This document shows positions 1,158-40,748 of a stretch of 64,000 nucleotides of DNA, one piece after another. This stretch comes from Siphonodentalium dalli. Its lineage: Eukaryota; Mollusca; Scaphopoda; Gadilida; Siphonodentaliidae. Within the stretch, counting starts at the first letter, position 1. Each line of letters begins with the position of its first letter. The notes under the pieces were generated by a model that saw nothing but the letters and a program-made list of their open reading frames with translations, was not told where the DNA came from and searched no databases. The stretch lies in the NCBI GenBank assembly GCA_032622095.1, contig CP136064.1:3592280-3656279 (forward strand), in the 5' to 3' direction. Position numbers and translations under genes: made by a program.

Positions 1158-1296
1158 CTAATAATTAATCAGGTTTTTTTGCTTAATAATATCGTAATAC
1201 ATGGATGTTTGCGATGAAAACTAAGATCTAAGGAAGGGTTTGATATTTTGAAAAATAATGTTTTTGAAGCCATTTTTCTATGATTTAATAGGCCAA

Positions 1297-1825
1297 TCTA
1301 ATATATATTTGAGGAAAGTTTGTGTGTCTGTGTGGCCGCGATGGACTCAAACGGAACCAACATAGGCCCATCCATTTGTTCATGCGGCGTGAACTTTACC
1401 TTCAAACCGGTGACCTTCAACCCATAACGCGGGCATGTCCGTCTGTCCGTGCGGCGTGAGCTTGACCTTCGAGTGACCTTGAACTCAAATCTCGGGATCC
1501 GCTGAGCCGATTTCCAGCGAATTTGGTGGAAACGGATAGTATGAGGCGCTGAGCAATTTCGTCATGCCCGTGCGGCGTGACCTTGACCTTCGAGTGACCT
1601 TCACTCTCTATCTCAGGATCCGATGGGACGATCGGGATGAAATTTTGTAGGTAGGGATGGTTTGGGTAGTCAAACATTTTCAACGGGTAGCGGCGTGCCT
1701 TGACCTTTCAAATGACCTTGAACCTGTATCTCGGTATCCGCTGTTCGATTTCCACCATTTTTGGGGTGTTGGTGTAAAAAAAAACAACACAACGACTCTC
1801 CCCGTCAGGACGGGTACCCAGCTAG
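1297..1825 (+). mobile_element. non-autonomous Helitron C
   Basis: The 5' end reads TCTAATATATATTTG directly after an A. The 3' end is a hairpin (CCCGTCAGGACGGG), seven bases, then CTAG followed by T. TC...hairpin...CTRR inserted between A and T is diagnostic for canonical Helitrons. The body has repeats of about 120 bp with the phrase GTGCGGCGTGA and a GTCC-like tract. The last 55 bp (1771 on) form the left edge of the 2.7 kb tandem duplication. Confidence 0.8.
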
Positions 1826-1882
1826 TATATATATATATAAAAACAAAAAATTTCCAGACCCCCGTGAGTTCATGGGCCACTA

Positions 1883-1916: not shown

Positions 1917-1921
<5 letters not shown>

Positions 1922-2330
1922 TATATATTTTGAAGACCTCTGTTTGTCTGTATGTCATTTATACAAATCTACGATTCTCGACCGATCGGGACGAAACTTG
2001 GTACGTGTGTGTAGTTTGACCAGGCGGTCGTCGTTGTCATATTGGCGAGCCCGTGCGGCGCCCGCTTCGCGCATGCGCAGACGAGATCTCGGAAACGGGT
2101 GGAGCTATCGACTTGAAATTTGCTATGTGAATGTATCTTGCCCCGGATACAAATTTTATCGGGTCGCCGAGCCCGTGCGACGCCAGCTTCGCGCATGCGC
2201 AGACCAGATCTCGGAAACGGGTGGAGCTATCGACTTGAAATTTGGTTTTTGAATAGCCCGGACAATGTCGGGCTCTCGACTTGAAATTTGGTTTTTGAAT
2301 AGCCCGGACAACGTCGGGCTCATCGGATAG
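1917..2330 (+). mobile_element. non-autonomous Helitron A, copy 1
   Basis: The 5' end is TCTCTTATATATTTTGAAG. The body has about 120-bp units containing GCGCATGCGCAGAC and GATCTCGGAAACGGGTGG. The 3' hairpin GCCCGGACAACGTCGGGC is followed by TCATCGG and ATAG, a mutated CTAG. A longer relative lies at 38719-40505 on the other strand and keeps CTAG. The 3' end abuts the 5' TC of Helitron B exactly. Confidence 0.8.
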
Positions 2331-2971
2331 TCTACTATATATTTTGAGACTTCCGTATACATGTATGTGTATATCCTTTATAGACTCAAAAACGGCTCGA
2401 CCGATTGAGCTCAAACTTGTTATCTAAGGGTAAAAAGCCACGAGAAGTGCCATCGCACCGCTTCTGAGAACGTCCGAGCACTCCTTGACCCTTCGCACCG
2501 CCACCGTCGTTGGAATTGATGGGTTAATGATTAAGGAGCGTTCGTATCTACGGTGTCGTTGTTAAAGAGCGTTTATATACACCAGTATAAATACGGCTCA
2601 ATCGACCGTCTCGGAAACTGGGCATATCAAGACGAAATTTCGTACTTAGGGCTTCCAAGGGACGGGGGAGATTTTCGTCGGGTCAGTTTGTCCGCCTGAG
2701 GTGACCTTAAAACGGGTGCCTACAAATTACCTTGGGTGATATCTCGGTCATAAGCGGTGACATCGACGTGAAATTTGTTATGTATGGTCAACTCGGGACG
2801 GGGAATATTTTTGTCCGGTTATTTTGTCCACCCAACATGACCTTGAAACGGGTACCCGCAAATGATAGCATGCTGTTGGCGTGCCTGTAAAGGGTTACCT
2901 TGAAAAACAAAAATTAATGGATCGACCAAAGCCATGGGACCAATCCCGCCAGTGGCGGGCTAATCTGCTAG
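2331..2971 (+). mobile_element. non-autonomous Helitron B, copy 1
   Basis: It starts TCTACTATATATTTTGAG and ends with hairpin CCCGCCAGTGGCGGG, eight bases, CTAG, then T. It has no coding capacity. It shares a similar 5' tip with Helitron A but has a different body and 3' hairpin. Confidence 0.85.
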
Positions 2972-3296
2972 TATATATATAAAAAACACTTAGGGTACCC
3001 TTGTGAATCAATTGGCCAATATAAAAAAAAAAAATCCCAGACCCCTATTTTTGGTCCCCTCCTAAATTTTTTTTATTGGGATACATGTAGTTCTGTAGTT
3101 CCGAGGTAAACTTGATTTTCTCATGCCTTAACTTTCAAAGTATATTGTAATGACCAATTAATCATCTATTTCAATCAAATTGGGCAATTTATATCACATT
3201 GTATAGAAATGACCATTTACATTGGAATGGCCTATTGTTCATCTGGAGAGATTCTCATGGAAAATGAGCAGATGACGACCCTCAGTTATCATTATT
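2972..3296. other. spacer, no gene; carries a repeated 75-bp block
   Basis: AT-rich spacer. The segment 3222-3296 (starts CATTTACATTGGAATGG) is repeated at 5930-6004 and again, diverged, at 7371-7452, so it flanks the satellite-type element on both sides. Confidence 0.6.
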
Positions 3297-4525
3297 AGCT
3301 CAACTTACTTTGTAAGTTTGAGCTATTGCCATGGTTTGGCGTCCGTCGTCCGTGTGTCCGTCAACAATTTCCTTTGGCGCGGGCTACAGGTCGTACCTTT
3401 GGTCTGACCTTTATGAAATTTGTCATGAATGTTGACATTGACATGTAGATGGGAACGAGTCATTTTGGGGTCATTTGGCAAAAAAACATGGCCGCTGGTG
3501 GCCATCTTGGATTTCAAAATTCAATCCATTGGCGCGGGCTACAGGTCGTACTGTTCATCTTATCATCATGAAATTTGTCATGGATGTTAATATTGACATG
3601 TAGATGGGAACGAGTCATTTTGGGGTCGTTCGGCCAAAAAACATGGCCGTCAGCAGCCATCTTGGATATTACTCTTTGCATGACTAAATCCTTTGGCGCG
3701 AGCTACAGGTCGTAGTTTTGGTCGGAACTTCATGAAATTTGTCATGGATGTTAACAATGAAATGTAGATGGGAACGAGTGATTTTGGTGTCATTCGTCTA
3801 AAAAACATGGCCGCCAGCAGCCATCTTGGATTTTACTCTTTGCATGACTAAATCCTTTGGCGCGGGCTACAGGTCATACCTTTGATCTGATCTTTATGAA
3901 ATTTGTCATGAATGTTGACATTGACATGTAGATGGGAACGAGTCATTTTGGGGTTATTTGGCCAAAAAACATGGCCGCTGGTGGCCATCTTGGATTTCAA
4001 AATTCAATCCATTGGCGCGGGCTACAGGTTGTACTGTTCGTCTGATCATCATGATATTTGTCATGGATGTTAATATTAACATGTAGATGGGAACGAGTGA
4101 TTTTGGGGTCGTTCGGCCAAAAAACATGTCCACCAGCAGCCATATTGGATTTGACTCTTTAAATCCTTTGGTGCGGGCTACAGGTTGTAGCTTTGGTCGG
4201 AACTTCATGAAATTTGTCATGGATGTTAACAATGATATGTACATGTAGATGGGAAACGAGTCATTTTGGGGTCGTTCAGCCGAAAAACATGGCCGCCAGC
4301 AGTCATCTTGGATTTTACTCTTTGCATGACTAAATCCTTGGGCACAGGCTTCAGGTCGTACCTTTGATCAGATCATTATGAGATTTGTAAAGGCTGTAGA
4401 TGGGAACAGGTCATTGTGTGGTAATTCGGAAAAAAACATGGCCATTTTAGAATTTACTCTTTGCATCACTAAATCCTTTGGCACACCATAATCATCACAT
4501 TCCTGATCCGATCATTATGAAACCT
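3297..4525 (+). mobile_element. satellite-type (Helentron-like) element, AGCTCAA family, 3' part lost
   Basis: The 5' terminal hairpin is AGCTCAACTTACTTTGTAAG..GAGCT. It is followed by a GTCC-like tract (GTCCGTCGTCCGTGTGTCCG) and then about seven units of roughly 160 bp, each with GGCGCGGGCTACAGGTCGTA and CATGGCCGC. The copy is cut at 4525 by the duplication junction. The complete version is at 6005-7374. Confidence 0.75.
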
Positions 4526-6004: not shown

Positions 6005-7374
6005 AGCTCAACTTACTTTGTAAGTTTGAGCTATTGCCATGGTTTGGCGTCCGTCGTCCGTGTGTCCGTCAACAATTTCCTTTGGCGCGGGCTACAGGTC
6101 GTACCTTTGGTCTGACCTTTATGAAATTTGTCATGAATGTTGACATTGACATGTAGATGGGAACGAGTCATTTTGGGGTCATTTGGCAAAAAAACATGGC
6201 CGCTGGTGGCCATCTTGGATTTCAAAATTCAATCCATTGGCGCGGGCTACAGGTCGTACTGTTCATCTTATCATCATGAAATTTGTCATGGATGTTAATA
6301 TTGACATGTAGATGGGAACGAGTCATTTTGGGGTCGTTCGGCCAAAAAACATGGCCGTCAGCAGCCATCTTGGATATTACTCTTTGCATGACTAAATCCT
6401 TTGGCGCGAGCTACAGGTCGTAGTTTTGGTCGGAACTTCATGAAATTTGTCATGGATGTTAACAATGAAATGTAGATGGGAACGAGTGATTTTGGTGTCA
6501 TTCGTCTAAAAAACATGGCCGCCAGCAGCCATCTTGGATTTTACTCTTTGCATGACTAAATCCTTTGGCGCGGGCTACAGGTCATACCTTTGATCTGATC
6601 TTTATGAAATTTGTCATGAATGTTGACATTGACATGTAGATGGGAACGAGTCATTTTGGGGTTATTTGGCCAAAAAACATGGCCGCTGGTGGCCATCTTG
6701 GATTTCAAAATTCAATCCATTGGCGCGGGCTACAGGTTGTACTGTTCGTCTGATCATCATGATATTTGTCATGGATGTTAATATTAACATGTAGATGGGA
6801 ACGAGTGATTTTGGGGTCGTTCGGCCAAAAAACATGTCCACCAGCAGCCATATTGGATTTGACTCTTTAAATCCTTTGGTGCGGGCTACAGGTTGTAGCT
6901 TTGGTCGGAACTTCATGAAATTTGTCATGGATGTTAACAATGATATGTACATGTAGATGGGAAACGAGTCATTTTGGGGTCGTTCAGCCGAAAAACATGG
7001 CCGCCAGCAGTCATCTTGTATTTTACTCTTTGCATGACTAAATCCTTGGGCACAGGCTTCAGGTCGTACCTTTGATCAGATCATTATGAGATTTGTAAAG
7101 GCTGTAGATGGGAACAGGTCATTGTGTGGTAATTCGGAAAAAAACATGGCCATTTTAGAATTTACTCTTTGCATCACTAAATCCTTTGGCACACCATAAT
7201 CATCACATTCCTGATCCGATCATTATGAAACCTGTCATGAATGTTGATATTGACATGTACATCTAGTCTTACTTAGACGTTTCAATTAGCACCTTTCCTA
7301 TTCCTCCATTTACTGTCAACCATTAAATTATTCCCCTACCTAAGTTGAGCTACAGTGTCATTGACACTTTCATT
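6005..7374 (+). mobile_element. satellite-type (Helentron-like) element, AGCTCAA family, complete
   Basis: 5' hairpin, GTCC-like tract and 160-bp units as at 3297. The 3' end reads AAGTTGAGCTACAGTGTCATTGAC..., a hairpin AGTGTC-ATT-GACACT followed by TTCATT. Part of the 5' motif (AGTTGAGCT) recurs just inside the 3' hairpin, as in Helentrons with subterminal inverted repeats. It is flanked on both sides by copies of a 75-bp block (5930-6004, 7371-7452). It encodes no protein; the long frames on the minus strand are read through the 160-bp units. Confidence 0.75.
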
Positions 7375-7433: not shown

Positions 7434-7495
7434 GACCCCCAGTTACCATTATTTGATGAGATTTTGATATTATAATATTTTTAGATGGTACGAGA
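7434..7495 (+). repeat. copy of the intron-exon border of gene 1
   Basis: Reads CCCCAGTTACC..TTTGATGAG..TTTTTAGATGG and resembles 9281-9332, the real acceptor of the exon at 9321. A third copy of the acceptor stretch ends at 9271. The TTAA insertion at 7496 follows directly. These are potential cryptic acceptors. Confidence 0.6.
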
Positions 7496-9227
7496 TTAAC
7501 CCTTTACCCAACAAACCGGCCAAAACCGGCCAAATAAAGCTTCAACAGCCTAAAATATCTTCGGTCTGTCTCAATAGAACCATACAAATATGGATATCAT
7601 TGGAACCGGTTCATTGACCACATTGTGATGGTTACAGTTATACCCTGTGCCAATGCATTCTCTTATATATGCGAGTCGACCATAGGTCGCCTCGCATATA
7701 TAAGAGAATGCATTGGCCTAAAAAAAATCTTTTTTTAACACTTTTTACCATTTTTATGTTTACCCATACCATGTATGGTAAACATAGTGTCGTTGTCCGG
7801 ATTGACCACTCGTCGTTCGTCCGTCCGTCCGTCTGTCCGTCCGTCTGTCCGTCCGTAGACACTTCACGTGTAATGCGATAACTCAAACATTTTCTATCCA
7901 ATCAGAAGCAAATTTTGTATATGGGTATATCAGCCCAAAATACAGATCGAGTTCGAATTTGGGTTTGATCCGAGTTTTTGTTACAGAGTTATGGCCCTTT
8001 TTCTACTTAGAATTCACACATTCTGCCATAACTCAAACATTTTTTATCTGATTGGAACCAAATTTGGTATGTGAGTTTCACAGCTCAAAATACAGATCTA
8101 GTTCGAATATGGGTTTGATCCGATTTATTTTAAAGGAGTTATGACCCTTTTTTGAGAAAAAACTATTGATTTAAAAAAAAAAATATTTTTAACTTTTATA
8201 ATAATAATAAAAAAAATGTCATTGACATTGTCATTTGTTTTCATTTAGATATTGATGATTATGATACAAGTTGATAAAAAGATTTCCAATGTGTCCCTTT
8301 AATTTTTTAAAATAATTAAAAACAATTATAACCATTATAACTCTGCCAAGGGTACCCCGAATCACCACACCAAATTTGATTAAATCGGTCCAAAATCTTG
8401 TGTTATGTACTGGTAAATCTGTTTGGAGCAACATTAAATCCAATTCACCAATTGCATTTGGACTACTTAGCTATTGATAAAGCTATATTATTTTCTGATG
8501 TCTCTTATGTCAATGTGCAAATAATCTGATAAAGAAGCCTGTAGTATCTAATTTAAAATAAAGATTCAACAATAAACATCACATGATATTAACAGTAGAC
8601 TTGGACATCTGTGCTGCATAGTTATATCTTCAGATGGTCTGATATCATTATAATTGTTATTAGTTTAATAGAGGTCAGTGTTCAACATAAACAATTCCTG
8701 TGATTTTTTGACAGCTGTGCTATATAATTGATATTAATGGGTCAGTGGTGAGGTTGCTTATCTGTATACTAGGACACATTATTATTGTAAACTTAAATTG
8801 GACTCTCTTAACCCAAGTATTCCATGTCCAGGGCACACCTACACATTTAACCCACGGACTTGCTGGCTGTGGCGGTTTAGCATTACAGATCCTGTACCAG
8901 TGCATTCTCTTATATAAATGCCAGTGACCCATAAATTCCAATAATTTGTGTTATGTACATTTGTCTATAATAGTACATAACAGTGTACTCTATAATTCAA
9001 CACCGAAACTCTCATTTATCCGATCATATTAAATTTTTATCGCCAAGGGATGGGTTAACATCTGCCGATCGTGATCGGCCTCTCGTTTCTTACATTCTTT
9101 AACAATTTTATAATTTTTAATGTGTTAAGCCAATACATTCTCTTATATATGCGAGGCGACCTATGGTCGACTCGCATATATAAGAGAATGCATTGGCACA
9201 GGGCCGTTCTGTTGGGTAAAGGGTTAA
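7496..9227. mobile_element. piggyBac-type MITE (CCCTTTACCCAACA tips), interrupted
   Basis: TTAA duplications lie at 7496-7499 and 9224-9227, with tips CCCTTTACCCAACA and TGTTGGGTAAAGGG (one variant base). Both arms end in long hairpins (7648-7715 and 9125-9200) with the GCATTCTCTTATATATGCGA core. The 390-bp relative at 24452 lacks the 1332-bp insert present here at 7756-9087. Confidence 0.9.
7756..9087 (+). mobile_element. satellite-type (Helentron-like) element nested in MITE, ATGTTTACC family
   Basis: The 5' hairpin is ATGTTTACCCATACCATG..GGTAAACAT. Next comes TCCGTCCGTCCGTCTGTCC, then about 120-bp units containing GAGTTATGGCCCTTTTT and CAAATTTGGTATGTGAGTTT. The 3' hairpin GCCGATCGTGATCGGC is followed by CTCTCGTT. 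Against the uninterrupted MITE at 24452 the insert is bounded exactly, inside a T run, with no target duplication. A second copy is at 38753-39907. It encodes no protein. Confidence 0.85.
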
Positions 9228-9320
9228 CTTCACTATAAATTGATCATTTTTTATATTTAAATATTTTTAGATGGTACCCCAGTTTATCTTCATTATTTGA
9301 TGAGGTTTTGATATTTTTAG

Positions 9321-9485
9321 ATGGGATGAGAGGTCTCCAGCTGTTAGGGCACGACCAGAAGCAGAGCACATCATCGCGAAACAGACAACAGACCATCTGA
9401 GTGAAATTATGAACATGACTGACTCACCTTCATCACCAACTCATCAGTCGAAGAATCTAAGACACTTACAACAAACCCCAACTCC
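9321..9485 (+). CDS. penultimate coding exon of an unrecognised gene (gene 1)
   Basis: A 165-bp open exon lies between a good acceptor (TATTTTTAG, ends 9320) and a consensus donor (GTGAGTAT, 9486). It starts with one base and ends with two bases of split codons. The peptide begins WDERSPAVRARPEAEHIIAK and ends in a Ser/Pro/Thr-rich stretch (SPSSP, QQTPTP). It joins in phase to 22529. The segment RARPEAEHII..EIM resembles RTRPEGMEIY..SIM of the last exon, so it is a repeated motif. I do not recognise the family. It looks hydrophilic and low in complexity, with no membrane segment, perhaps a cytoskeletal or ciliary type, but that is a guess. Upstream exons lie outside the window or were missed. 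Confidence 0.7.
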
Positions 9486-9528
9486 GTGAGTATATAAATT
9501 GTTTATAAGAAACCCTGACTCCATGAGA
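9475..9528 (+). repeat. minisatellite containing the exon donor, left part
   Basis: Units of about 38 bp (CCCCAACTCCGTGAGTATAT...TTTATAAGAAA). The first unit holds the true donor CC|GTGAGT. Later units read GCATGAGT or CCATGAGA, so they lack the GT. The array was split by the element at 9536 and continues at 11219-11309. Confidence 0.75.
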
Positions 9529-9535
9529 ATATAAA

Positions 9536-11218
9536 CATGGTTTCCGTTACTACGGCTCAGCGTCCGTGTAACGGCCTCATTCCCCTTGCTGATGATATGT
9601 TTGAGACATACATGCACCTAAAGTCAATAGCAATCTATCGTAAAAAAAAAGTCCGACTGCAACTGGAGTTCGAGGGTTAAACAGAATACTAGTGAAAAGC
9701 CGGATGTAACCCTTTGAAATAAAAGCGCCTAAGACTGCAATGCAATGTTTGGGGTGCGGTCAAATAGAGACGTTAATTGTAATTGTATACAGCGTAATAC
9801 ACATATGAAAATGTCGCGTCGACATCAAAGAATGCCGGACTGCTGAGTATGGATATTTTGTGCACGGGATTTCTGTAGATGAAACTACTCTTGCTCGGAG
9901 ATCCCGTGCAAAATATATCCCCTAATATGGAGATAAAGTCAAAGTACCGCCAATAATAGTTTCATTAACCCGCATGGGGCCCCAAGCAACGACGCACATG
10001 TTCACATTTCCCACCAAAAATCAATTATACACGGGGGCTAAAACTCTGTTCATAGGAGTGGTCCTAACTATAGTTGTTGGACTAATGCAGACTATTGAAC
10101 AAGCTACGCGTTCCGAGTTTGAATGATTTCGCTACAATTCATATTACGCCGCTATAAATATCTTCTGCAGTATGACGTCACAGCGCACAAATAGTTTTTA
10201 TGATTGACAGAATATATCCTTTCGGTTTCATTTTCACGGAAGCTACCTGTTGGATTATTTTTGGAAATACTTAATTCAATGCTAGGTATTATTGGTCAAT
10301 GCATAGACGCTTTTTAGTCGAGTTTTTTTCCAAAACTCGACTTATAGTTTGATGAGGGACGGGCGGCGGGCGGGCGGGCGACGTTTTTTGGTGTGTGAGT
10401 ACATATCCATGCACGTAAGCTGCAGACAAAAAAATCGGGTTTGTCCGCACATTTATTACAGAGTTATGGCCCTTTGCCATTTTTCACTGATTTTAGGCTC
10501 GTTAGCGCAACAACTTCAACAAACGTTATCTGATTCGATTGAAATTTGGGATATAGGTGTCTCCCAAGAATATCTCGGACGAGTTCGAAAACCGGTCTGG
10601 TCCGATAAAATTTCATAGAGTTATGGCCCTTAATTAGTCATTTTTCACGAATTTTCAGCTCGTTAGCGCGATAACTTCAACAAACGTTATCCGATTTGAT
10701 TGAAATTTGGTATATAGGTGTCTCCCAAGAATATCTCGGATGAGTTCGAAAACCAGCCTGGTCCGATAAAATTTGATATAGTTATGGCCCTTAATTAGTC
10801 ATTTTTCGATTTTACCTATTAATTAGTCTACCGATACTGATGCACACCAATTGGCGGTAGCCACCGGCGGTAAGCCACCGAAAACGAGACACAGCATCTC
10901 TGATGCCACCTCTTGTTAGTATTTAAATATAGCTGTCGGAATCTTATAAATTTGTAAACACTGTAACTCGTAGCTTTTTCATTTATTTAGTCTTCAATCT
11001 GACGGTGGTCTCACGTGCGTAATTTCATGATCAATGCTCTGGATACCATCAACAGAATTAATGCACCCACACAGAAATTATCAACTTGCGTAATATATGT
11101 AGCTTTGGGTTGCTTTGTGACTCGTGAGTATCTCAGGTGCAAGGAAATGACAACTTTTCAGTGACAAATACCAAAATTACAGTACGGACTCATTTATTTT
11201 CCCCTGGCGGAAACCCTG
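9536..11218. mobile_element. DNA transposon with 7-bp TSD (CAGGGTTTCCG family), copy 1
   Basis: The ends are CATGGTTTCCG and CGGAAACCCTG, flanked by a perfect 7-bp duplication ATATAAA (9529-9535 and 11219-11225). A second copy in the opposite orientation at 18352-19793 also has a 7-bp duplication. It has no transposase. A 7-bp TSD would suit P or Dada elements, while the CAGGG tip suits hAT (usually 8 bp), so I leave the superfamily open. It carries a nested satellite-type element (10316-10917). Confidence 0.8.
10316..10917 (+). mobile_element. satellite-type (Helentron-like) element, AGTCGAG family
   Basis: The 5' hairpin AGTCGAGTTTTTTTCCAAAA..CTCGACT is followed by a GGGCGGGCGGGCG tract. 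Two roughly 160-bp units follow, with GAGTTATGGCCCTTAATTAG and CTCGTTAGCGC. The 3' hairpin GCATC-TCT-GATGC precedes CACCTCTTGTT. The plan matches the element at 7756 although the sequence differs. It is nested in the 7-bp-TSD element; the copy at 18352 lacks it and marks the empty site. Confidence 0.8.
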
Positions 11219-11309
11219 ATATAAATCACTTATAAAACACCCCGACTGCATGAGTATATAAATAATTTATAAGAAACACCCCGACTGCATGAGTATATAA
11301 ATTTCCTCA
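11219..11309 (+). repeat. donor-derived minisatellite, right part
   Basis: Continuation of the 38-bp array begun at 9475, with CCCCGACTGCATGAGTATAT twice. The donor GT is replaced by AT in these copies. Confidence 0.75.
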
Positions 11310-11614
11310 CTGTACAATCGTCCGGGCATGTATTTGGACACATCGACATGTATTCTCATTGCTACAGCATTTAAATTGACAGTATAACCAGGTATATAAT
11401 CACGGAATTGTATATTTTGGCTTTATAATATGGTCTATAGAAATTATGATACAATTGCAATTCCAGAGAACGCTATTGATACATTCTGTTGTAGCACACC
11501 AATAGTTAGAAACATCCACAAATTGAAAAGTATTCATATCCCATTTCATAGGAGTATTACGCAGATTATTGTACAGTGTGAATCTCATCAGTTTAAGCTG
11601 TGCGTTAGCTTTTT
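11310..11614. other. intron sequence, no feature seen
   Basis: Moderately AT-rich part of the gene 1 intron. I find no repeat end, exon or RNA here. Confidence 0.5.
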
Positions 11615-11813
11615 TATACCTCCTGCAACGAGTTGCGGGGGTATACTGTATACTTGTCCGTCCGCCTGTCCGTCCGGCTGTCTGTCCGTGTTTACTAATG
11701 ACTACTTATGTGGCTAAGATTGTGTAAAATGGATATTTATGTGCATAACTTCCGTTGCGTGGCTAGCCACGTAACAGCTTTCAGATGGACGTTCAAAAAT
11801 GATCTATTTGGCC
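11615..11813 (+). mobile_element. 5' end of a satellite-type (Helentron-like) element, TATACC family
   Basis: Hairpin TATACCTCCTGCAACGAG..GGGGGTATA (11615-11645), then GTCCGTCCGCCTGTCCGTCC. The pogo-type element at 11816 interrupts it, and sequence resumes at 15953. The 3' end may be the one at 18234, but a second 5'-like hairpin near 16205 means two elements are possible. Confidence 0.6.
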
Positions 11814-12550
11814 TACCGTACCGGCCGGTGTATAAGGCGCATCTTTTTACCCCAATTTGCCCTATTAAAATCCTCCTGCGACTTATAGATCGGTAAGTCA
11901 ATGAGGGGCATATTTTCAGCCGAATTTTGAGGATTCAACTGCGATCACAGGTAAATAACGGGACAAAATGCCGACGCAAACTAACTGCAACGCGATAAAA
12001 TAATACAATTCGGTATACAAAAAATAAATAAATACCCCATCCTCATATGTACTTTGTCTTTATTATATTCCCTGTCCGACATTTAAAACATATATATCGT
12101 ATTATATGTATTAATATCTAAGAATTCAACTGTAAACAGCAGCAAATTCACAAACAGTGGGCGTCCTTGACCTGACTGTGTAACACGTGCATGAGTGACC
12201 CACATTCAATGACTGCGGTATGATCTCTTTGATGTCTGCAAACTTCTAGCAGATGACGTCACATCGGAATGTTTATTTAGAGCCCTGGAATGAGCATAGT
12301 TAAAGCCCCAAAGACTCTAAATGCATGTCTGGACAGCGTGTTCTCATATTTTAATGAGGCTTATGTGCGAACTCATGTTTATATTACATAAACATTATTT
12401 TATGCTGTACCGAGTACGCATAACATTTAATCCCCACGTTGAGTAGTTGACACTTAATACTGAAGAGTGCATTGCATCACTATTAGCCCAAAGCGTTTTT
12501 ATTCATGCTTCGCGTCAATTAGGCGACAACTAAATTAACGAGGCCATTAT

Positions 12551-13060
12551 CGAAGAAGGACAAATGTTGCGGTTATTCCAGGAGGCATGACATCCATACT
12601 ACAGCCGTTGGATGTATGTTTAAATAAGCCATTCAAGAATGCAATCAGGAATAAATGGACTGAGTGGATGTGCGATGAAAAAGACAAAGTATTCACTAAA
12701 GCAGGAAACCTTAACCGACCTGACTTACCGTTAGTGGCAAAATGGGTGAAGCAGTCATGGGACGAATTAGACACTGAACTTATTGTGAAATCTTTCAAAA
12801 AGTGTTGTATTTCGAATGCTATGGATGGTTCCGAGGATGACGAACTGTATAGTGAATATGTGTTGGAGAAGGATGCGAAAGTGAGCGAGAATGTTGAGAT
12901 AGAGTGTGGTGATGTTAACGGTGTGAGTGATGATGATGATGATGATGATGATGTTTATGATGATCCGAAAGGTTTTTGTGATGTTTTTGACGATAATTTG
13001 TCGCACGCTGAGTGGTGGAAATTGTATATGGAGGCAGACAGTGAAGACGATGATGAGTGA
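12551..13060 (+). pseudogene. Tigger/pogo transposase, C-terminal remnant
   Basis: The frame reads RRTNVAVIPGGMTSILQPLD followed by VCLNKPFK, the conserved end of the DDE domain of pogo/Tigger transposases, where IPGG-T-LQPLDV-NKPFK is a hallmark. Downstream come W-VKQSWDELDTELIVKSFKKC and a dipeptide ISNAMDGSEDDELY typical of the family's tail. A run of aspartates (GAT repeat near 12930) and an acidic end finish at the stop at 13058-13060. The DNA-binding half and the first two catalytic acidic residues are missing, so it is a fragment. The opposite-strand frame is its shadow. Confidence 0.85.
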
Positions 13061-13470
13061 TAGTGATATTGTGAAAGTGAAGTCAAATGTTTCTGTTTTA
13101 TTTATATTTAGTTATACACATGTTATACAAGTTGAAATGATGATGAATAAATGTTAATTAATACATTGATTTTACTCTCAACCACCCAGAGTTAGTCCAA
13201 GCGTCATTCAAGTCAAAATAATAAGTTTTATAATCCATGTTCCCACACACTCCTAATGAAAATGAACCAATGTTATCTCCCCTGCTTGGGAATTCCCCCA
13301 AATCAGATTGGGAATACCAGAAGTATTCGTGGAATGTTCGTTCATTTTTACGTCTGTGATAAATTCTATTTAAAAAAAATGCTTCCTCTGCTCTAAATAA
13401 CTCTAAATCCAGGTCAATCTGTCATTTTGATGTTCCCTTACAAGTCACTGGAATACAGCACTGCCTAAAT
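13061..13470. other. 3' flank of transposase remnant, no gene
   Basis: Noncoding part of the Tigger-type element. Confidence 0.4.
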
Positions 13471-15832
13471 TAAGCGACCTGTTTTAACGAGGTGTACATG
13501 CGTTAATACCGTGGTGCAATACCGCGACATACCGCCGATTCGCGGTTGCACTACCGCGGTACCACCGTAGTGTTCACGGTACCACCACACTACCAGCGGT
13601 AACGAATTATTGTAGCGCGGTGGCACGCGGTAATGCACCGCACAAACGCGGTGACATTACCGCTAAGCGGTAGCATTTTTTTTAACGATGTTAATGACGG
13701 AATTCGATGGCTGACCGCCAATCTTCCAAAATAGGACGGCCGTTCTCACGATCTCCGTCCATGATTGTGTACCGTGAAGTGTCTTATTAAAATATTGAAA
13801 TGCCCATTATAACGGGCTTCCAGATTAAGTAAAGGTAAGTATAAGTTACTTTGAGAAAGTAATTTTTCAATTAATGTGAATATTAAAATATTACTATAAC
13901 ATTTCTAGTCTCGTTTTATTGCCAAAAATTCCCATAAATGACACTATTTGTAATCAGTGTTGGTTATCGGGAAGGGAACAAATGATTTCGTCCATTTTAG
14001 ACAGCTCGATAAATCCCGTATCTACAGTTTATATCAATGTTCAGATGTACGTGATCCCTAAATTGAATGATAACGACACTATTTAAATAGTCCCCAGAAT
14101 AAATATCGTTATTAACTTTATTGACATTCATTAACTGCAAATCACAAACACCATTTGTTCCTATAACGGGAATTATTGTCTTAGCAATAAAAGACACAAA
14201 GTGGAACTCCCGTATATCCAGGAAAAAAACACATTCTGCGCAAAAGCACGTGTCACTGATTACGTCATACTGCAGCTGGCAGACTTTGTTAATATAGGGC
14301 ACGGGGCACTTAAATTAAGATGTCGTCATGTTTTTTTATAACTGGCCTCAATGGGTGAAATAAATATTTGTGTTTTGTTGATTATTTTTGTTGATTATTT
14401 GTGCTATTAGTAAAACTAAACACGTGACGCGCGAATGGCTGTTTTGGACACTTGTATTTCCATTACTTCAATGCGTCCGTTTGGCTTACATAATGCTCGC
14501 AGAAGGTAGTTCAGATATTTATCGATCTATTTTGGTATTGCGAATACTATTATGTGCAAACCGCCACGTGACTTTAAACAGACAAGTCTCATTCGATCTT
14601 TAAAATGTTGTGCAAGTAATAGCTGTTTATAAATATTTGTCGCTAAAAGTGAGACAAACGCTCTTTATTGCTACCGTATCGGGAATAAACTAACAAGGAC
14701 TAAAACACACCGAATTCGATCACTTGAAATAATTATGTTACAATGTTAACCTCTGTATATAACCAAACAAACATATTTAGAGGTCAACTTTCCAACACCA
14801 TGCATGTTTTCTTCCGAATAACGATTAGATAGGAATACCGGTATGTGATATAATTTATACTGCGACCCACCGAGAACTACAAGTGCACGCCCTCGCCAAA
14901 AGTTGAAATTTCACATGAAACGATGCCGCCCGACACGCACTCGTGAGCTCAATGAATGTTCACGTAAATGTTTGTAAATTGCTTTACTATTTCACGCATG
15001 CGTACAATCATACGTCTTGGCGACAATATACTATTTACGCGCCGATTATGTTTGGCATATGAACAAAACTATAGATTTGAACGAATATGAATATTTCTGA
15101 AATGATCGCCGCCCTGGCCTCCAAGACTAAAATCGGACTCAGTGTTACTAATGCACTGTCCCCGCTGGGTTCGACCAAATTCAGATAAATGGAGGATTTA
15201 ATTTTCCCATTTTATAAGAAGTTGAGATTTCGGAAACACAAACAAAACAACAAATTCCGCATGAGTGGAAACCGATATAGGAATCGGGTGCGTAAATCAT
15301 TTGACGATATGTAAGATAGATGCTAACAACAAAACTTACTCCACGGTGTTTTGCGTAATCCAGTCGCCGTAAGCAACTATAGCTGAGTTCAAAAACCGCT
15401 GATGTGATGTACGTGTACATTTGTAATATGTTACATGTAAACCCGACATGTTCATACATGTATGTAATCCGATTGCATTATTATTAATTTATATTCATTA
15501 CGTACATGTGTATACATAATTACGTGCAGCTTACAGGTATTCATTCAATACAAAAGTTATTCATAATCATTTACCTACCGTGTGACGCCTTGTTTCAGTC
15601 GTGTTCTCTCCGCGGTGGAGGGCCGTTAGCGGTAATTTGAACGCGGTTACGAAATAAATAACGCGGTGTATGGCGGTAACGAACACCAATAACGCGGTAA
15701 CCAACGGTAAAAATACCGTACCAGTACCGCGGGTCAACCGCCCCCCGTCGCGGTACAGAATGATAACCGCGGTAGTTTGGTGGTATCACCGCGGTAAGTA
15801 CCGGCCCATAACCTCGTTAAACAAGTCGCTTA
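13471..15832. mobile_element. TIR element with GCGGTA-rich subterminal arms
   Basis: The outer sequences TAAGCGACCTGTTTTAACGA and its inverted match (TCGTTAAACAAGTCGCTTA) bound two arms of about 200 bp (13500-13680, 15600-15800). Both arms are crammed with ACCGC / GCGGT words in varying spacing, while the 1.9 kb between has none. Dense subterminal motifs near TIRs recall CACTA/EnSpm or hAT transposase-binding regions. No transposase is visible. It is possible that the outer motifs belong to the Tigger element and only the arms belong to the insert. Confidence 0.55.
13690..15590. other. interior of nested element, no gene recognised
   Basis: 1.9 kb without convincing coding sequence. Reading frames of 60-100 codons on both strands show no family motif. 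Confidence 0.45.
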
Positions 15833-16432
15833 CTGAGAGCATAGCTGTAGGTGCGACGTATACAACAGAAAGAGCCAAAAGGCAACCTTTTAAGCTTCAA
15901 AATTCAATGCGACTTATCCAACGATGCGATTTATCCACCGGCCGGTACGGTAATCAGCTTATTTAATTTTGTAGTCACTCAAAATTTGGAAACTAAAAGT
16001 CCATAGATTTAGACATCCATGACCTGCCAATAGGAGATGTCGGACACTGACGGACATTTATGTGGCTAGCCACCCAATCACGGACCTGTCAGTTTCTCCT
16101 ATTCCACTGTCCCAGTTGCTGTGTGCAAGTTTTTGAGTTTTAATCAGCTTCTTCTGCTATAATTCCAACATGTTATGAATCCATAATCTGGAGTTTTATC
16201 ACTATCTACTACTTGATAGCCACATAAAATTTTATGGCTACTTGAGAAGCCACATAAAAACTAAAGCCACATTACCATTTCTAGCCACATACATGTAGGT
16301 CGGAGCCACATATCTACCCATTTGTTCGTCTAGCCGTCCGTCTGTCCATCCGCCCATGGACACAAATTTGTCTGGAGTTTTTCTCAGTCGTTTTATGATC
16401 CTTTTCCGTGAAACTTGGCACAGACATCAACC

Positions 16433-17491
16433 CAGGCCTTAGCTCACAAGGCGACTCGGGCGAGATTGTCGCCTTACTGTCACTGACTTCGCCCTATCGT
16501 CGCTCTAAGGCGAAATCGAAGTCGCCTTCAATTTTAGGGGGATTTGTTTTGTTTTTTTCTTAATTTTTTTTCTAGTTTTTTTCCCAGACATGTCCGTATA
16601 TAGATGAATTGTGGCGGCCATCCCAAAAAGAAACAGACGATTCAGAGACAAAGACCCAAGTGTTTAAAATAAAAAATAAAATATGACCTATTGTTTTGTG
16701 TTGTTATTCAGTCGCCTTTGTTCGCTTTGCGGTAATGAATGTTAATCACGAATGTTTTGACACGCTGAAAACATGATATGTTCGCATCTGTGTTGTTACT
16801 GACCATCGTGATTGTCACAAATAAATGTTTTAATTAACTTAAAAGACCGCCGTCCCGCTTTTCAGATATAAAAACAATTACGCAATTATCAGAGTATGTT
16901 CGGAAGTTCTTTTCGGTAACGCGTCAAACTTTTTGAAAAGACCGCGTCCCACTTTTTGAAGAGACCGCTTCCGTAGCCGTAAATAAATGTCAAGTTTATT
17001 GCTTTAATCGGATTATACCAGTGATGTTGGCATTAATTAAGGGAGGCCATTAATTAATAAAAGCTTTAGCAACTCCTTTGTTAGTTAGTCCTTATTGTTT
17101 ATTTTAGCGGACACCCACATTACAGCCGTGACCAAATTAAACTTAAAAAGTTACATGCATCATCTGATCTAGTCCGCAAATCTGACGTTAATTATCAGAG
17201 CACGGCTGAATATTTGATTAGTTGAGTCCACCAACTACATCTGATCATGATTCAGACTGTCAAATGTATAATAACAATTAATTACGCTAATTTCAGATAA
17301 AGTCAAAATTTTTAGTTTTATTTCTTATTTCTTATTTTAACTTTTTAAATTTTTTATTGATGTTATAAAATAAAGCGATATTTGAAAATTGTCAATTTTT
17401 GGTAGTCTCCCCACTTCTCCCTGAAGTCTCCCTAAATGTCCTGGAGGGAGACTTCAAGTCTCCCTGTTCTGAACCCCTAGGCTGAGGCCTG
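16433..17491. mobile_element. non-autonomous hAT element, TSD CATCAACC
   Basis: The tips are CAGGCCTTAGC and its inverted CAGGCCTCAGC, flanked by a perfect 8-bp duplication CATCAACC (16425-16432, 17492-17499). An 8-bp TSD with a CAG tip is the hAT signature. Both subterminal regions have GGCGA/TCGCC words. There is no transposase. Confidence 0.9.
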
Positions 17492-17999
17492 CATCAACCA
17501 CCATGCGAAACTGTGATTTTAAGACTTTTATGAAAATTTTCGCAACATGTATAATTTTGTCCGAGCTTTTATTCCTACATTTTTAGGTCAATGTTTTTTA
17601 ATCTTGGCACTGATATTTAGTACCATGGGAACCTGTGCACCTGCGATTATGACGTCTGTCCGACTTTTTTTTTGTGTGGAGTTATTCCCCTTTTTCGACT
17701 TAGAAATTTGTTTGCAACATGCATAATTTTGTCCGAGCTTTTATTCCTACATTTTTAGGTCAATTTCTTTTAATCTTGGCACTGATATTTAGTACCATGG
17801 GAACCTGTGCACCTGCGATTATGATGTCTGTCAGACTTTTTTTGTGTGGAGTTATTCCCGTTTTTTACTTTATTCCTACATTTTTCGTTCAATTGGTTTA
17901 AGATTAGGGTTAGGGTTATGCACCTGCAATGGGAACTGTTATTTTATAATTTTAACTAAATATTTACTGACATGTGAAACATCTTAGTATTTTAAAAAC

Positions 18000-18020
18000 G
18001 GGGGGGGGGGGGGGGGGGGG
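18000..18020 (+). repeat. poly-G tract, 21 bases
   Basis: Uninterrupted run of G inside the 3' unit of the satellite-type element. Confidence 0.95.
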
Positions 18021-18263
18021 TATCCTTAGTCACACCTCTAGTTTGTATTCGGATGATAACTTTACTACAGGTAAGTCTGAATTGAATGGAATGAAATTTG
18101 GTTTGTGAGTTTACAAACCCAAAATACAGGTCAAGTTCAAATTTGGGTTACACCCAGCAATTTTCCTCAGATTTATGGCCCTAAGTTGGAATTACTATGG
18201 GCGTATTTTGCTACACCCAAGCGATGCTCTTGTTTAATAAGAGGGGGTAGCTTATGTTGAATC

Positions 18264-18351: not shown

Positions 18352-19793
18352 CAGGGTTTCCGCGAGGGGAAAATTAATGAGTCCGTATTGGGGAAACACA
18401 TAACGCGACGGGACGACCATGGTTCGTCCCGTCGGGCGAAAATTTTGTTATTTGACACTGAAAAGTAGCAATTTCCTTGCACATAAGAGTCTCACAAAGC
18501 AACCAAAGCTACGTATATATTACGCAAGTCAATCATTTCCGTGGGTGCATTAATTCTGTTGATGGTATCCAGATAATCAATCAACTAATTACGCACATAA
18601 GACTGCCGTCTGATTGAAGATTATATATAAATGAACAAGCTACTAGTTATTGTTTACAAATTTATACAATAAGATTCCGATGAATCTAAACACTACAAAA
18701 CATCTATGCATTGACCAATAATAGATAGCAAGGAGAATTGAATAAAGTATTTCCTAGAATTGCAAGCAGCTTCTGTGAAAATGAAACTGACATGATATAC
18801 GCTGTCAATCGTAAAACTATTTGTGCGCTGTGACGTCATACTGTAGGAGCTATTTATAGCGGCAAAATACGAATGGTAGCGACACAGGTATTTGGCACCA
18901 AAAAAATTTAATTAAAAGAGATTTTTATTAAATTTAAAAACAAAAATTGTGCCTAATACCTGTGGGTAGGGACATCTTTCACTCGGAACGCGTAGCTTGT
19001 TCACTAGTCTCTATATATTAGTCCATAAACTGACGACTGCAATTGCTTATTATGCGCATAGTCAACAAAATCCCAACGTGATTTATTTCACAGTAAAACG
19101 GAACCTGTCCCGAAATCAGTCTTTATAGTGGGAATTCATAGTGACAAGTTAACAACACCATTCATTTGAACCATATTACATACATGGGTGATAAAGACAA
19201 ACACATACGTACCCCCTCCCCAATATGGAGATAATGTCAAAGGACGGTAAATAATAGTTGCGTTGTCCCCAAGCACAATCAACGACGCACGTGTTCACAT
19301 CTCCCGCCAAATTATATTTTATAACACGTTGGCTAAAACTCCGTTCTATACCTCATGGACTCTGCAGGGGGACCCATTTATTATGTACCACCGTACGATA
19401 GCACGGGATCTCGGAGAGGAGCAGTTTCATTCATGAAAATCCCGTGCATAAAAATGTCCCGACTAAGAAATTCGGCGTTCTTTGATCAAATTATGTAATC
19501 CTACGATATCACGGGATTTTCGAGCATGAGTAGTTTCATCCCGTACACAAAAATATGCATATTCAGCAGTCCGACATTTTTTGATGTTACCGCGACATGC
19601 ATTACGCTGTATCTAACGTCGCTATTTGACCCGCTTTTTCACCAGTATTCTATTTAACACCCGAACTCCCGTTGTAACCGGATTTGTTTACGACATTGCG
19701 ACTGACATTTGGTATATGTATGAACCAAACAGATAATATGCGAGGGGAATGAGGCCGTCCTACGGACGCTGAGCCGTACTAACGGAAACCCTG
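18352..19793. mobile_element. DNA transposon with 7-bp TSD (CAGGGTTTCCG family), copy 2
   Basis: Perfect tips CAGGGTTTCCG / CGGAAACCCTG, and a 7-bp duplication GTTAAAC (18345-18351, 19794-19800) created inside a minisatellite unit. In reverse orientation it matches 9536-11218 for most of its length, without the insert at 10316. A small inverted-repeat insertion (CACAGGTATTTGGCAC...) sits at about 18884-18962. It has no transposase. Confidence 0.85.
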
Positions 19794-24189: not shown

Positions 24190-24905
24190 TGAAATATAGA
24201 CTAATGAACGAGCTACGCATTATCGAGTCTGAAACATTTTAACACTCTTCCCATTACCACTGCTATAAATAGCTTTCCCTGGCAATCACCGCAGTAAAAA
24301 TATATTTGTTGAGTTCGGTTTCGTTTTCGCGAATAATAAATACTGTGCTAGCTGTTGAAATTCTTGGAAATACCCAATTCCATTCTCATTCTCATTGCTA
24401 CACACGAAGCCATTGTTCAATTGTGGACTCTTCAAAGATGCTTTTTATTGTTTAACCCTTTACCCAACAAACCGGCCAAATAAAGCTTCAACAGCCTAAA
24501 ATATCTTCGGTCTGTCTCAATAGAACCATACAAATATGGATATCATTGGAATCGGCTCCTTGACCACATTGTGATAGTTACAGTTATGCCCTGTGCCAAT
24601 GCATTCTCTTATATATGCGAGTCGACCATAGGTCGCCTCGCATATATAAGAGAATGCATTGGCCTAAAAAAAATATTTTTTTAACACTTTTTACCATTTT
24701 TTCTTACATTCTTTAACAATTTTATAATTTTTAATGTGTTAAGCCAATGCATTCTCTTATATATGCGAGGCGACCTATGGTCGACTCGCATATATAAGAG
24801 AATGCATTGGCACAGGGCCGTTCTGTTGGGTAAAGGGTTAATTAGTTGTCGTAATCTCTGTATTTGTAAACTCTATGTGAAATTAGCATTGTGACAGAAA
24901 AATTA
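24190..24905. mobile_element. diverged remnant of the 7-bp-TSD family, interrupted
   Basis: Patches align with 10070-10310 (GAACAAGCTACGCG versus GAACGAGCTACGCA; CGCTATAAATA; CGGTTTCATTTTC). The piggyBac MITE at 24452-24841 splits it. Terminal repeats are not preserved, so its limits are approximate. Confidence 0.45.
24452..24841. mobile_element. piggyBac-type MITE (CCCTTTACCCAACA tips), intact form
   Basis: TTAA at both ends, tips CCCTTTACCCAACA and TGTTGGGTAAAGGG (one variant base). Two long hairpins (left and right) are built on GCATTCTCTTATATATGCGA. It is the uninterrupted reference for the copy at 7496. Confidence 0.9.
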
Positions 24906-34782: not shown

Positions 34783-34961
34783 TAGATACTCAATCCCCAT
34801 CATAGCCTGTTTTCACAGCTGGTAAATTTTCAGGAAATTCTTTACAGAATGATCACAGATGTTTTGCTGAATAGTGATCATGGGGAAATTTTCTCCAAAA
34901 ATATTGTGTTGACACCTGAGAGTAATTAAGTTGAGGGGCGGAGGAAACTGGAATCAGCTTG

Positions 34962-35240
34962 TCCATCTGTCTGTTCATCTGTCTGTTCATCTGTCTGTTC
35001 ATCTGTCTGTCCATCTGTCTGTTCATCTGTCTGTTCATCTGTCTGTTCATCTGTCTGTTCATCTGTCTGTTCATCTGTCTGTCCATCTGTCTGTCCATCT
35101 GTCTGTTCATCTGTCTGTCCATCTGTCTGTTCATCTGTCTGTCCATCTGTCTGTCCATCTGTCTGTTCATCTGTCTGTCCATCTGTCTGTCCATCTGTCT
35201 GTTCATCTGTCTGTTCATCTGTCTGTCCATCTGTCGGTTC
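34962..35240. repeat. 12-bp minisatellite, about 23 copies
   Basis: Unit GTCTGTTCATCT with GTCTGTCCATCT variants. All three plus frames and one minus frame stay open, as expected. Confidence 0.95.
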
Positions 35241-35243
35241 ATG

Positions 35244-35899
35244 TACGCAACTATCAGTTGTATTCCTTCATTTTTCAGTCAATTTCAAACTTGGCAGATA
35301 TTTATTACCATGCACAAATAGCGGATGAAGATGGATAACTCTAAAATCAAGTGACCTTTTTGTGTCAGATATTTGACAAACTGGCAAAATTTTATGGTAC
35401 AAAATGTTGACAAGGCAATTTTATACTATAGTTGACTGTGGTTAACATTATTTTTGGGCAATTAGTTGATTCTGATAACTGAAGCGGCATTTCAAAAAAA
35501 TTGTTGGAATCTGAAATTTGTTTATAGGATTGAAGTTTAAAGGCTAAATTTGGGGAAAATATCAGTTGTATAAGTTAATTACATAGTGGTAGAGCGTATT
35601 ACAAACCACTGTGATGGGAAGGATAGGCAAGAATTCTTCTTCCCTTATTTTTTTAATGCACCTACAATCTAAGGGCACAATGCACCTACTATCTAAGGGC
35701 AGTTACTCTACTGTAAATGGATCTGACCAGCCTGGTTTTCAAATTTGCAAAGTAATCCTTGTTGGAAGAACCAAACTTCAAAATTGGAATTGGCATCTCC
35801 AAATGTATTGGCTTGAAGTGCACTATTTGATGGCAGAAGTCCTAAAAGACAGGAGAGGCTAGTCAATTAAATTTGATTCTATGACAGACTGGAGATAAT
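35244..35899. other. no gene recognised
   Basis: Short frames only. A stretch near 35330-35355 (GATGGATAACTCTAAAATCA) also occurs in the fold-back at 54060, so some dispersed repeat is present. Confidence 0.4.
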
Positions 35900-36322
35900 A
35901 CATATTTTTCTGTCCGCCAACAGCTTTTAAAACGCCCATTTGATAAAAAACGGTCGTATTATGTAAATGGATGTCCGCCCATCTGCTTTTGGTTGCCGGA
36001 TGATAACTTTAGATTGAATCAAGTGAACTGAACCAAATTTGGTATGTTAGTTTACCACACCAAAATAAAGTTCAAGTTCGAATATGAGTTTCGTACGCAT
36101 GATTTTGACAAGAGTTATGCCCCTTTTTCGACTTAGCTTTTACCTGATTTGTGGTTTCCGGACGATAACTTTTGATTGAATCAAGTGAACTGAACCAAAT
36201 TTGGTATACAGATCAAGTTCAAATATTATTTCGTCTTAAGTCAAAGGTGTCAAACAAATGAATTAAACCTTGCCCAACTCTACTCCAGAAACGGGCGTAT
36301 TATGCCATGCCCTGCTCTTGTT
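35900..36322 (+). mobile_element. satellite-type (Helentron-like) element, 3' part
   Basis: Two body units with CCGGATGATAACTTTAGATT and GAACTGAACCAAATTTGGTA, then the 3' end GGGCGTATTATGCCATGCCC followed by TGCTCTTGTT. This end matches the one at 18234. A GTCCGCC-like start near 35913 may be a degraded 5' part. Confidence 0.6.
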
Positions 36323-36844
36323 AAAAGTTTTTTTTTTTCACTACAGACATTAGTGTCCAATGGCTGTGATTGCACATCTTTGAGTCATTCAAGAATTCCA
36401 CGAACAATGTCCGAAGATACAAATTACATACAAGATTACATTCAGTCCTATCCAGTATCATGTGTTTTATAAAACAAGCAAAATACACAGCATAAACCAA
36501 ACCTCGATCATATGACCAAGACGCATGCATGGATTGATCATTCACTGCAGTCGATCTTTTTATATCAAAATAATTATGTTCAGTCATTCATTCGCATGGT
36601 GTAACTTGAATGGAAGTTTGTTGGTTGAAATTACATCATGTGACATCACACACAGGGCTCTGGCATGTTCATATTTTATGAAGTTGTGAATGCAACTTTT
36701 AACAAAATACAAGAATATCCTTCAAAATGGGCACTGAATGCTGTTTTAATTTGTTGCTTTCCATGGAGTATGGACACAAGTTGGTCTGATATTTTTATGT
36801 GCGTTTCAAGTTCCACACAAATTTTCAAGACCAAAACAAAAATA
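36323..36844. other. no gene recognised
   Basis: Unique-looking sequence with short frames lacking family motifs. Confidence 0.4.
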
Positions 36845-37000
36845 AAAGGTCGGCCGACCAGTGTCCCCCGACAACCCAAAACAAACAAGACCATTCCAAA
36901 ACAAAATAAAAGGTCGGCCGACCAGAGTGTCCCCCGACAACGTGACCATTCCAAAACAAAATAAAAGGTCGGCCGACCACAGTGTCCCCCGACAACGTGG
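36845..37000. repeat. 58-bp tandem repeat with GGTCGGCCGACC palindrome
   Basis: About 2.7 units: AAAGGTCGGCCGACCA, GTGTCCCCCGACAAC, then GACCATTCCAAAACAAAATA. Each unit has a perfect 12-bp palindrome. Confidence 0.85.
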
Positions 37001-40505: not shown

Positions 40506-40509
40506 TATA

Positions 40510-40743: not shown

Positions 40744-40748
40744 AAAAA

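Follow-up and report, generated by a model that had tools for sequence, protein, structure and literature searches.

A 64-kb stretch of the genome of the scaphopod mollusc Siphonodentalium dalli (assembly GCA_032622095.1, contig CP136064.1, positions 3,592,280 to 3,656,279 of the forward strand; GC content 38.6%), hereafter the window, contains a set of non-coding elements that share one plan under several different end sequences, and which we interpret as HINEs, i.e. non-autonomous Helitron2/Helentron transposons of the rolling-circle kind. We put the probability of this explanation, taken as a whole, at about 0.85. The class assignment follows from empty sites without target site duplications (TSDs), insertion at T runs, 5' hairpins, and a 3' subterminal repeat matched to the 5' end in several families, and it bears out the preliminary description of this DNA, made from the letters alone, in which Helitron2/Helentron derivatives had been proposed. 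The architecture itself is already known from molluscs and insects (Bao & Jurka 2013; Thomas 2014; Vojvoda Zeljko 2020). Less expected are two observations, namely that the same inner repeats occur within elements having different ends, and that a short common sequence is present in both rolling-circle classes of the window, nearly always on the same strand. All the evidence comes from copies within this one window and from the literature.

Insertion sites and element ends

Empty sites were found by self-comparison, as intact copies in the same window of the repeats that host inserted elements. The complete element ATG1, of the ATGTTTACC type (7756..9087, +), is made up, from 5' to 3', of a hairpin, a GTCY tract, two tandem units, the subterminal inverted repeat (subTIR) GGGTTAACAT, the hairpin GCCGATCGTGATCGGC and the tail CTCTCGTT. 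Its flanks, when joined, read ACCATTTTT|TCTTAC and match intact copies of the host repeat at 24.6 kb (24452..24841, +; one mismatch in the stretch shown) and at 31.3 kb (-); two more diverged host copies (46.1 and 29.1 kb) align on the right side and poorly on the left. An AT-rich palindromic repeat (GCCAATGCATTCTCTTATATATGCGAG...) forms part of this host repeat and occurs at 7643-7721, 9125-9204, 24588-24818 and 29051-29279, with further copies at 31202-31422, 44315-44394 and 46099-46296. The second ATGTTTACC element, ATG2 (38753..39907, -), lies within a canonical Helitron (copy D), and its empty site, GGTTTTT|GAATAGCC, is found in the Helitron repeat at ~2.3 kb and in the segmental duplicate at 5.0 kb. 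ATG1 and ATG2 have identical ends, ATGTTTACC...CTCTCGTT, with no TSD at either.

Two approximate empty sites add to these two clean ones in support of insertion without TSD. The complete HINE of the AGTCGAG type (10316..10917, +), which comprises a 5' hairpin, a GC-rich tract, 161-bp units detected by TRF and the tail CTCTTGTT, is consistent with a single diverged empty site at 18.7 kb (18441..18882, -; ~80% identity to its host repeat), and no TSD is needed to account for it. The AGCTCACC HINE (37223..40743, -) sits inside the tandem array of a GTCCCCC HINE and is itself broken by Helitron D; the array resumes past its tail, and unit 2 of the interrupted array serves as the empty site, while unit 1 does not align. 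All nine 5' ends checked follow TT (background 0.103), and six of the nine follow TTTTT (background 0.006). The tails are CTCTCGTT in the ATGTTTACC type, CTCTTGTT in the AGTCGAG element and at both TATACC ends, TCTTGTT in AGCTCACC and TTTCATT in AGCTCAA, and the form TCTYGTT is common to four end types. The empty sites of the window bear on which of the T residues are the element's own. The hallmarks of canonical Helitrons (5' TC, 3' hairpin followed by CTRR, A^T target) are absent from the HINEs.

The other families are represented by less simply bounded copies. The AGCTCAA HINE at 6005..7374 (+) runs from a 5' hairpin through a GTCC tract, 164-bp units, the subTIR TAAGTTGAGCT and a 3' hairpin to its tail, and is bordered on both sides by 79-bp direct repeats. 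A truncated copy (3297..4524, +) lies in a tandem segmental duplication (1770-4526 / 4525-7234, 98.2% identical) whose breakpoint falls within the AGCTCAA HINE, and a further AGCTCAA HINE (59096..60804, -) has the 3' end and units, its 5' AGCTCAACTT start not being found. At 42876-43564 (-), an AGCTCAA-like 5' end and body are followed by a Helitron-like hairpin and CTAGT, possibly a chimera of the two classes or a capture. The TATACC type is probably represented by one element at 11615..18234 (+), its two ends presumably paired across a terminal inverted repeat (TIR)/pogo-like insert (~11823-15955, boundaries set by eye). This insert contains, at 12539-13060, a 173-aa frame that matches DDE_1 (E 3.8e-9) and is a remnant of a pogo/Tigger-like transposase. 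A second TATACC-family HINE (34930..36322, +), with a 5' end judged by eye to be decayed, has an (TGTTCATCTGTC)n tract, related units and the CTCTTGTT tail. The GTCCCCC HINE (36831..41246, -) has its 5' hairpin at 41246 and units as far as 40743; its 3' end was placed by means of an inverted copy of the 5' end, with no empty site, and its 3' region (36831-36999) consists of TCGGGGGAC and the palindrome GGTCGGCCGACC, repeated in tandem with a 55-bp period in two to three copies. The stretch 41246-36831 (-) forms a four-level nest, in which the GTCCCCC HINE contains the AGCTCACC HINE, which contains Helitron D, which contains ATG2.

Most of the boundaries proposed in the preliminary description proved exact: the empty sites show 7756-9087 and 10316-10917 to be complete, 6005-7374 extends from 5' hairpin to 3' hairpin and tail, CTCTTGTT tails end at 18234 and at 36322, and 11615 and 40743 are the starts of 5' hairpins. 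A 5' hairpin does start near 41248 as well, but at 41246, 2 nt away.

Terminal hairpins and matched subterminal repeats

The 5' terminal hairpin expected of every family was found in most copies: in seven of the nine 5' 40-mers folded (those of ATG1 and ATG2 being identical), at most 3 of 300 dinucleotide shuffles were equally stable, but not in the AGCTCAA copies at 1159 (-) and 43564 (-), where 13 and 176 of 300 shuffles were. The 3' hairpin proposed alongside it is weak: at most 19 of 300 shuffles were equally stable in five of eight ends, the other three being at shuffle level.

The two ends of an element tend to match each other. In six families the initial 14 nt, reverse-complemented, were compared by score with the final 80 nt; the matched total was 47 (10 for ATGTTTACC, 6 for AGTCGAG, 11 for AGCTCAA, 4 for TATACC, 6 for AGCTCACC and 10 for GTCCCCC), a value reached by 3 of 720 permutations, the observed one counted, while the maximum in 2000 shuffles was 41. 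The 3' subterminal inverted copy is strong in ATGTTTACC and AGCTCAA, as it is in GTCCCCC, whose end was located by it; it is weak in AGTCGAG and AGCTCACC and absent in TATACC. Predicted duplex energy likewise places the family's own 3' end first in five of the six families. Judged from the sequences, the 5' hairpin thus tends to go with its own 3' subterminal repeat as a putative matched cassette, TATACC excepted.

One lineage of tandem units between different ends

Six GTCY-rich tracts were found in the window, two of them products of a single duplication, whereas 50 shuffles had 0.38 on average and never more than 2. The GTCC-like tract of the preliminary description is therefore real but not universal, since it differs in AGTCGAG, where it is GGCGGGC-rich, and is lacking in GTCCCCC. 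The tandem units announced there were found with periods of 150, 161 and 164 bp.

A unit profile seeded with the two ATG1 units (7878..8149, +) and read at the fourth pass gave 14 matches at E<=4.3e-4, of which 12 reached <=3.3e-16; every match runs in element sense, and all are confined to elements of the ATGTTTACC, AGTCGAG, TATACC and GTCCCCC types. Compared directly, the bodies of ATG1, the AGTCGAG element, the TATACC elements ending at 18234 (TAT18) and 36322 (TAT36) and the GTCCCCC element gave ten pairs, each of which beat all 100 shuffles (z 7.6-36.6), and across the four end types the bodies are 60-72% identical in local alignment. The AGCTCAA body, compared over its full length with these others, is unrelated to them (five pairs, z -1.2 to 0.5). 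The ends behave differently: of the 21 pairs of 3' ends, one, that of the two TATACC elements, shows a likeness (z 7.1 over the last 70 nt), while for each of the other 20 pairs 7 or more of 100 shuffles did as well, and 12 of 15 pairs of 5' ends are at shuffle level. The claim that the families are unrelated in sequence thus stands for most ends and for the AGCTCAA body, but not for the bodies of the other four types, which are homologous.

By these comparisons, one unit lineage sits between four end types, and because it does, we infer that tandem-unit arrays have moved between end pairs. Mosaic arrays within GTCCCCC were also considered and dropped, the unit tree being too weak (six of nine inner branches open).

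A core motif common to both rolling-circle classes

Besides HINEs, the window contains four canonical Helitrons. Helitron A (1292..1826, +; 5' boundary placed tentatively), Helitron C (2336..2972, +; 5' TC, core motif at 2400) and Helitron D (38718..40505, -; from 5' TC to CTAGT), which hosts ATG2, end in a hairpin and CTAGT, while Helitron B (1917..2335, +; 5' TC, core motifs at 1981, 2103 and 2225) ends in GATAGT where copy D has CTAGT. A and D also bear the core motif in sense.

This core was defined by a 34-nt position weight matrix (PWM) trained solely on HINE units of the four body-sharing families, whose top-scoring site, TCTGATTGGAACCAAATTTGGTATGTGAGTTTCA, lies at 8047..8080 (+) in ATG1. 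A core near CGATYnnnATGAAATTTGGTATG recurs in all five untrained rolling-circle sets, i.e. Helitrons A, B/D and C, AGCTCAA and AGCTCACC. At a score of at least 8 there were 13 matches in the training elements, 35 sense and 0 antisense matches in the other rolling-circle elements, which make up 10,024 of the 128,000 strand-bases, and 8 elsewhere; at a score of at least 6 the sense matches were 38 in the other elements and 15 in the training elements, with 12 matches elsewhere. Among the eight matches elsewhere, that at 21647 (+) lies in an AGCTCAA fragment, and those at 42278 (-) and 50860 (-) in unannotated repeat stretches. The core motif also drew attention to the region 42080-42640 (-), which starts with a palindrome, contains repeats bearing the motif and is perhaps a further HINE.

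With the threshold fixed by the eight outside matches and the AGCTCAA fragment added, sense matches occurred in five of five untrained sets (37 in total, many of them tandem or duplicated copies) and antisense matches in none; of 500 column-permuted matrices, none reached five sets and one reached four. Individual shuffle tests gave p 0.005 for all four Helitron segments, p 0.010 and 0.035 for AGCTCAA units, p 0.010 and 0.08 for AGCTCACC segments and, within the TATACC element, p 0.557 (U17) and 0.055 (T16k), while none of the 11 antisense and none of the 10 control tests fell below 0.05. A search for common 24-mers that made no use of the HINE model led to the same place, as eight of nine triples beat all 60 shuffles and seven of nine had the core in all three members; in two triples the score with the third member reversed differed by no more than one match from that observed. 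When the PWM was slid over the unit in 15 windows, at least three sets were reached in sense only at offsets 6, 12, 18 and 30, where the window always covers the core; two sets were reached at offsets 24 and 36, which touch it as well, and 0 or 1 at the other nine, with antisense counts of 0-2.

The likeness is local. Homology of Helitron and HINE units over their full length was not significant (best Helitron match E ~0.1), and Helitron units match HINE units only around the core. A structured single-strand origin at the core is disfavoured, since 11 sites fold like mononucleotide shuffles (z -1.6 to 1.1), and a sequence signal, as against a folded structure, may remain compatible with the data. 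No Rfam or tRNA match was found. Outside the window, two degenerate core patterns had one match each, in L001 and L002, which were dropped as chance; inspection by eye of 901 of 4848 bases and 501 of 8000, respectively, with no family search, suggested gene-like DNA of an ordinary kind at both loci. L001 has one small tandem repeat.

We infer that the internal units descend from a common ancestor and that the core has been retained in them as a cis signal. The further step of regarding the core as a functional, strand-specific signal on which Helitron1 and Helitron2/Helentron would both depend is suggested by the strand bias but is in our view distinctly doubtful; it is held less likely because the three Helitron sets proved related, and shared ancestry or satellite capture could also be the source of the common core. 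If true, the core, read in one orientation only, might for example be the place where copying of the displaced single strand starts or its machinery assembles, the tandem arrays would be amplified, interchangeable carriers of the core, and the ends matched recognition cassettes. HINEs disperse satellite-like repeats in mollusc and insect genomes, and the similarity of inner repeats across elements is a puzzle; bodies common to different ends, together with a strand-biased core, turn it into a testable question, namely whether eukaryotic rolling-circle transposition uses an internal cis signal.

A candidate mechanism and its alternatives

A mechanism consistent with these data can be sketched. 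HINEs would depend for their copying on a rolling-circle Rep/helicase provided by another part of the genome, and the 3' copy would pair with the 5' end, open the 5' hairpin and so mark the end of a round. This 5'/3' pairing switch terminating replication is, in the available part of their paper, Bao and Jurka's proposal for Helitron2 (PMC3627910). If self-complementarity and the tail alone matter, ends could drift or be swapped as a pair, and freedom of this kind would give one plan with many end sequences; tandem-unit arrays would pass between end pairs in fixed orientation. The free exchange of hairpins and bodies imagined in the preliminary description is retained for bodies, on better evidence than was then at hand (one lineage in four end types), but not for hairpins, which tend to be matched 5' to 3' (3 of 720 permutations), TATACC excepted. 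Its single replication machinery found no support: no Rep/helicase was recognised by eye among the 19 stop-to-stop frames that span 130 aa or more, and Pfam, which covered 5 of the 19, gave DDE_1 as its single match.

Several observations weigh against our interpretation. Regarding insertion, an autonomous partner element was not seen in the window; the 3' TT of the elements could be a 2-bp TT duplication rather than element sequence; and the 79-bp direct repeats that abut AGCTCAA 6005-7374 (5926-6004 and 7375-7453; ~94% identical), with both boundaries at ATT^T, run contrary to a strict absence of TSD, and may stem either from a long duplication of the target or from a tandem repeat that was present before insertion. 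Apart from these repeats, neither consistent TSDs nor different true ends nor ends of TIR transposons, each of which the preliminary description had held incompatible with its scheme, were found. Regarding the ends, three of the eight 3' ends (TAT18, TAT36 and AGCTCACC) fold no better than shuffles. The subTIR test fails for TATACC, specifically for the 11615/18234 end pair; the AGTCGAG score ties with another family's end; and the AGCTCACC 5' end is best matched by the 3' end of AGCTCAA. The GTCCCCC 3' end had been chosen by the same inverted match that was later tested, for which reason the test was rerun without this family (3 of 120 permutations) and also without AGCTCACC (1 of 24). A weak likeness (reached by no more than 2 of 100 shuffles) was found in three of the 15 pairings of 5' ends, namely TATACC/GTCCCCC (z 3.7; 1 of 100 shuffles), TATACC/AGCTCACC (z 3.3) and AGCTCACC/AGCTCAA (z 2.7), the first lying within the body-sharing group.

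Regarding the core, there was one antisense match each in the other and in the training elements at a score of at least 6, and one AGCTCAA unit of the 59-kb copy gave p 0.97, though other units of that copy do score. The triple of Helitron A, AGCTCAA and AGTCGAG failed (reached by 5 of 60 shuffles), and in that of Helitron C, AGCTCAA and ATGTTTACC the last member was aligned elsewhere. Helitrons A, B and C are alike even after masking of the core (none of 100 shuffles as good in each of the three pairs, 5' ends included), so that the independent groups number nearer three, besides the training HINEs.

One alternative, possible though on balance unlikely, is that the units are independent satellites, similar to BIV160/Cg170, that were captured repeatedly by end pairs, the core then being a satellite feature. 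The available parts of the literature do describe HINEs as carriers of satellites and BIV160/Cg170 as having two conserved motifs, one of which the core may be. But the core is also present in canonical Helitrons, with the likeness of their units to HINE units limited to its surroundings, and the fixed orientation in every element would need an extra explanation.

The main rival to body exchange, which we regard as rather unlikely, is descent from one ancestral HINE whose ends diverged faster than its bodies, with no exchange of modules. Architecture, tail and unit orientation are all shared, as it predicts, ends may co-evolve with the specificity of Rep, and the TATACC/GTCCCCC 5' likeness reported above would be its residue. 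Elsewhere in the body-sharing group, however, no residual likeness of ends is left although the bodies are 60-72% identical (z -0.8 to 1.3 for cross-family 3' ends and -1.1 to 1.6 for the other 5' ends), and in oyster group 1, as far as the published account available goes, ends and repeats diverge jointly.

A role of the core in nucleosome positioning or in transcription (e.g. as a Pol III-like signal), for which it would be selected in any repeat with no link to rolling-circle transposition, is improbable: the units are about the size of a nucleosome and some contain GTTCGAA, but the spacing of the motif varies by family from ~117 to 222 bp, the RNA gene searches were negative, and unit windows over GTTCGAA reach at most one of five element sets in sense. 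TIR transposons (miniature inverted-repeat transposable elements, MITEs) with palindromic ends are very unlikely, for while the palindromic 5' ends do look like TIRs and pearl elements have been described as MITEs in the literature available, the inverted 5' copy is subterminal rather than terminal and four cases lack a TSD.

Elsewhere in the window, near-palindromic repeats of up to ~215 bp at 783-995, 22786-22998, 23558-23772 and 30472-30660 match one another on both strands and form a foldback/MITE-like family.

Comparison with known systems

Repeats similar to the AGCTCACC type occur in bivalves, and motifs similar to the core in other invertebrate Helitrons. The unit phrases had no matches in viral contigs or genome contigs, nor did scans of these contigs yield an element related to the pearl family. 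Literature searches for CTCTTGTT alongside Helitron gave nothing related, judged by title, those for AAATTTGGTAT alongside Helitron no report, and those for GAAATTTGGT alongside repeat nothing related by title among the matches listed.

The following comparisons refer to the available parts of the papers cited. The bivalve pearl elements CvA/CvE/CvG, DTC84 and MgE, classed as HINE by later authors, resemble ours in combining a microsatellite or palindrome with short arrays of ~160-bp repeats, a likeness of description, not of sequence. In Helitron2 (Bao & Jurka 2013, PMC3627910), as here, the 5' hairpin contains an asymmetric terminal inverted repeat (ATIR) and insertion takes place after TTTT; a 3' ATIR lies upstream of a 3' hairpin there, an arrangement that the elements of the window share in part; one-ended Helitron2 copies have TSDs of 7-19 bp, whereas we found none in four cases and the 79-bp direct repeat in one. 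HINE/DINE-1 elements (Thomas 2014, PMC4067079) share palindromic subTIRs, a 3' palindrome, a TT target, unmodified empty sites and, in some copies, a microsatellite and central repeats. They differ in that those families are from mite, mosquito and fly, and an internal motif common to both classes is not described in the part of that paper available. PMC5139131 and PMC11136912 were drawn on as well.

A close counterpart is Cg_HINE of the oyster Crassostrea gigas (PMC7492417), which, like the elements of S. dalli, has a 5' subTIR with an inverted repeat, a GTCY microsatellite, tandem repeats in fixed orientation, a 3' subTIR with a palindrome, a T-rich target and no TSD. Cg_HINE falls into groups in which everything is similar, in which flanks are similar around unrelated repeats, or in which nothing is similar, and the last of these, group 3, parallels the families here that are unrelated in sequence. 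That study assigns every cluster of repeats to a single pair of flanks, and its clustering may have been too coarse for identities of 60-72%; related repeats at this level within different flanks, absent among the Cg_HINE groups as described there, are what sets the S. dalli elements apart.

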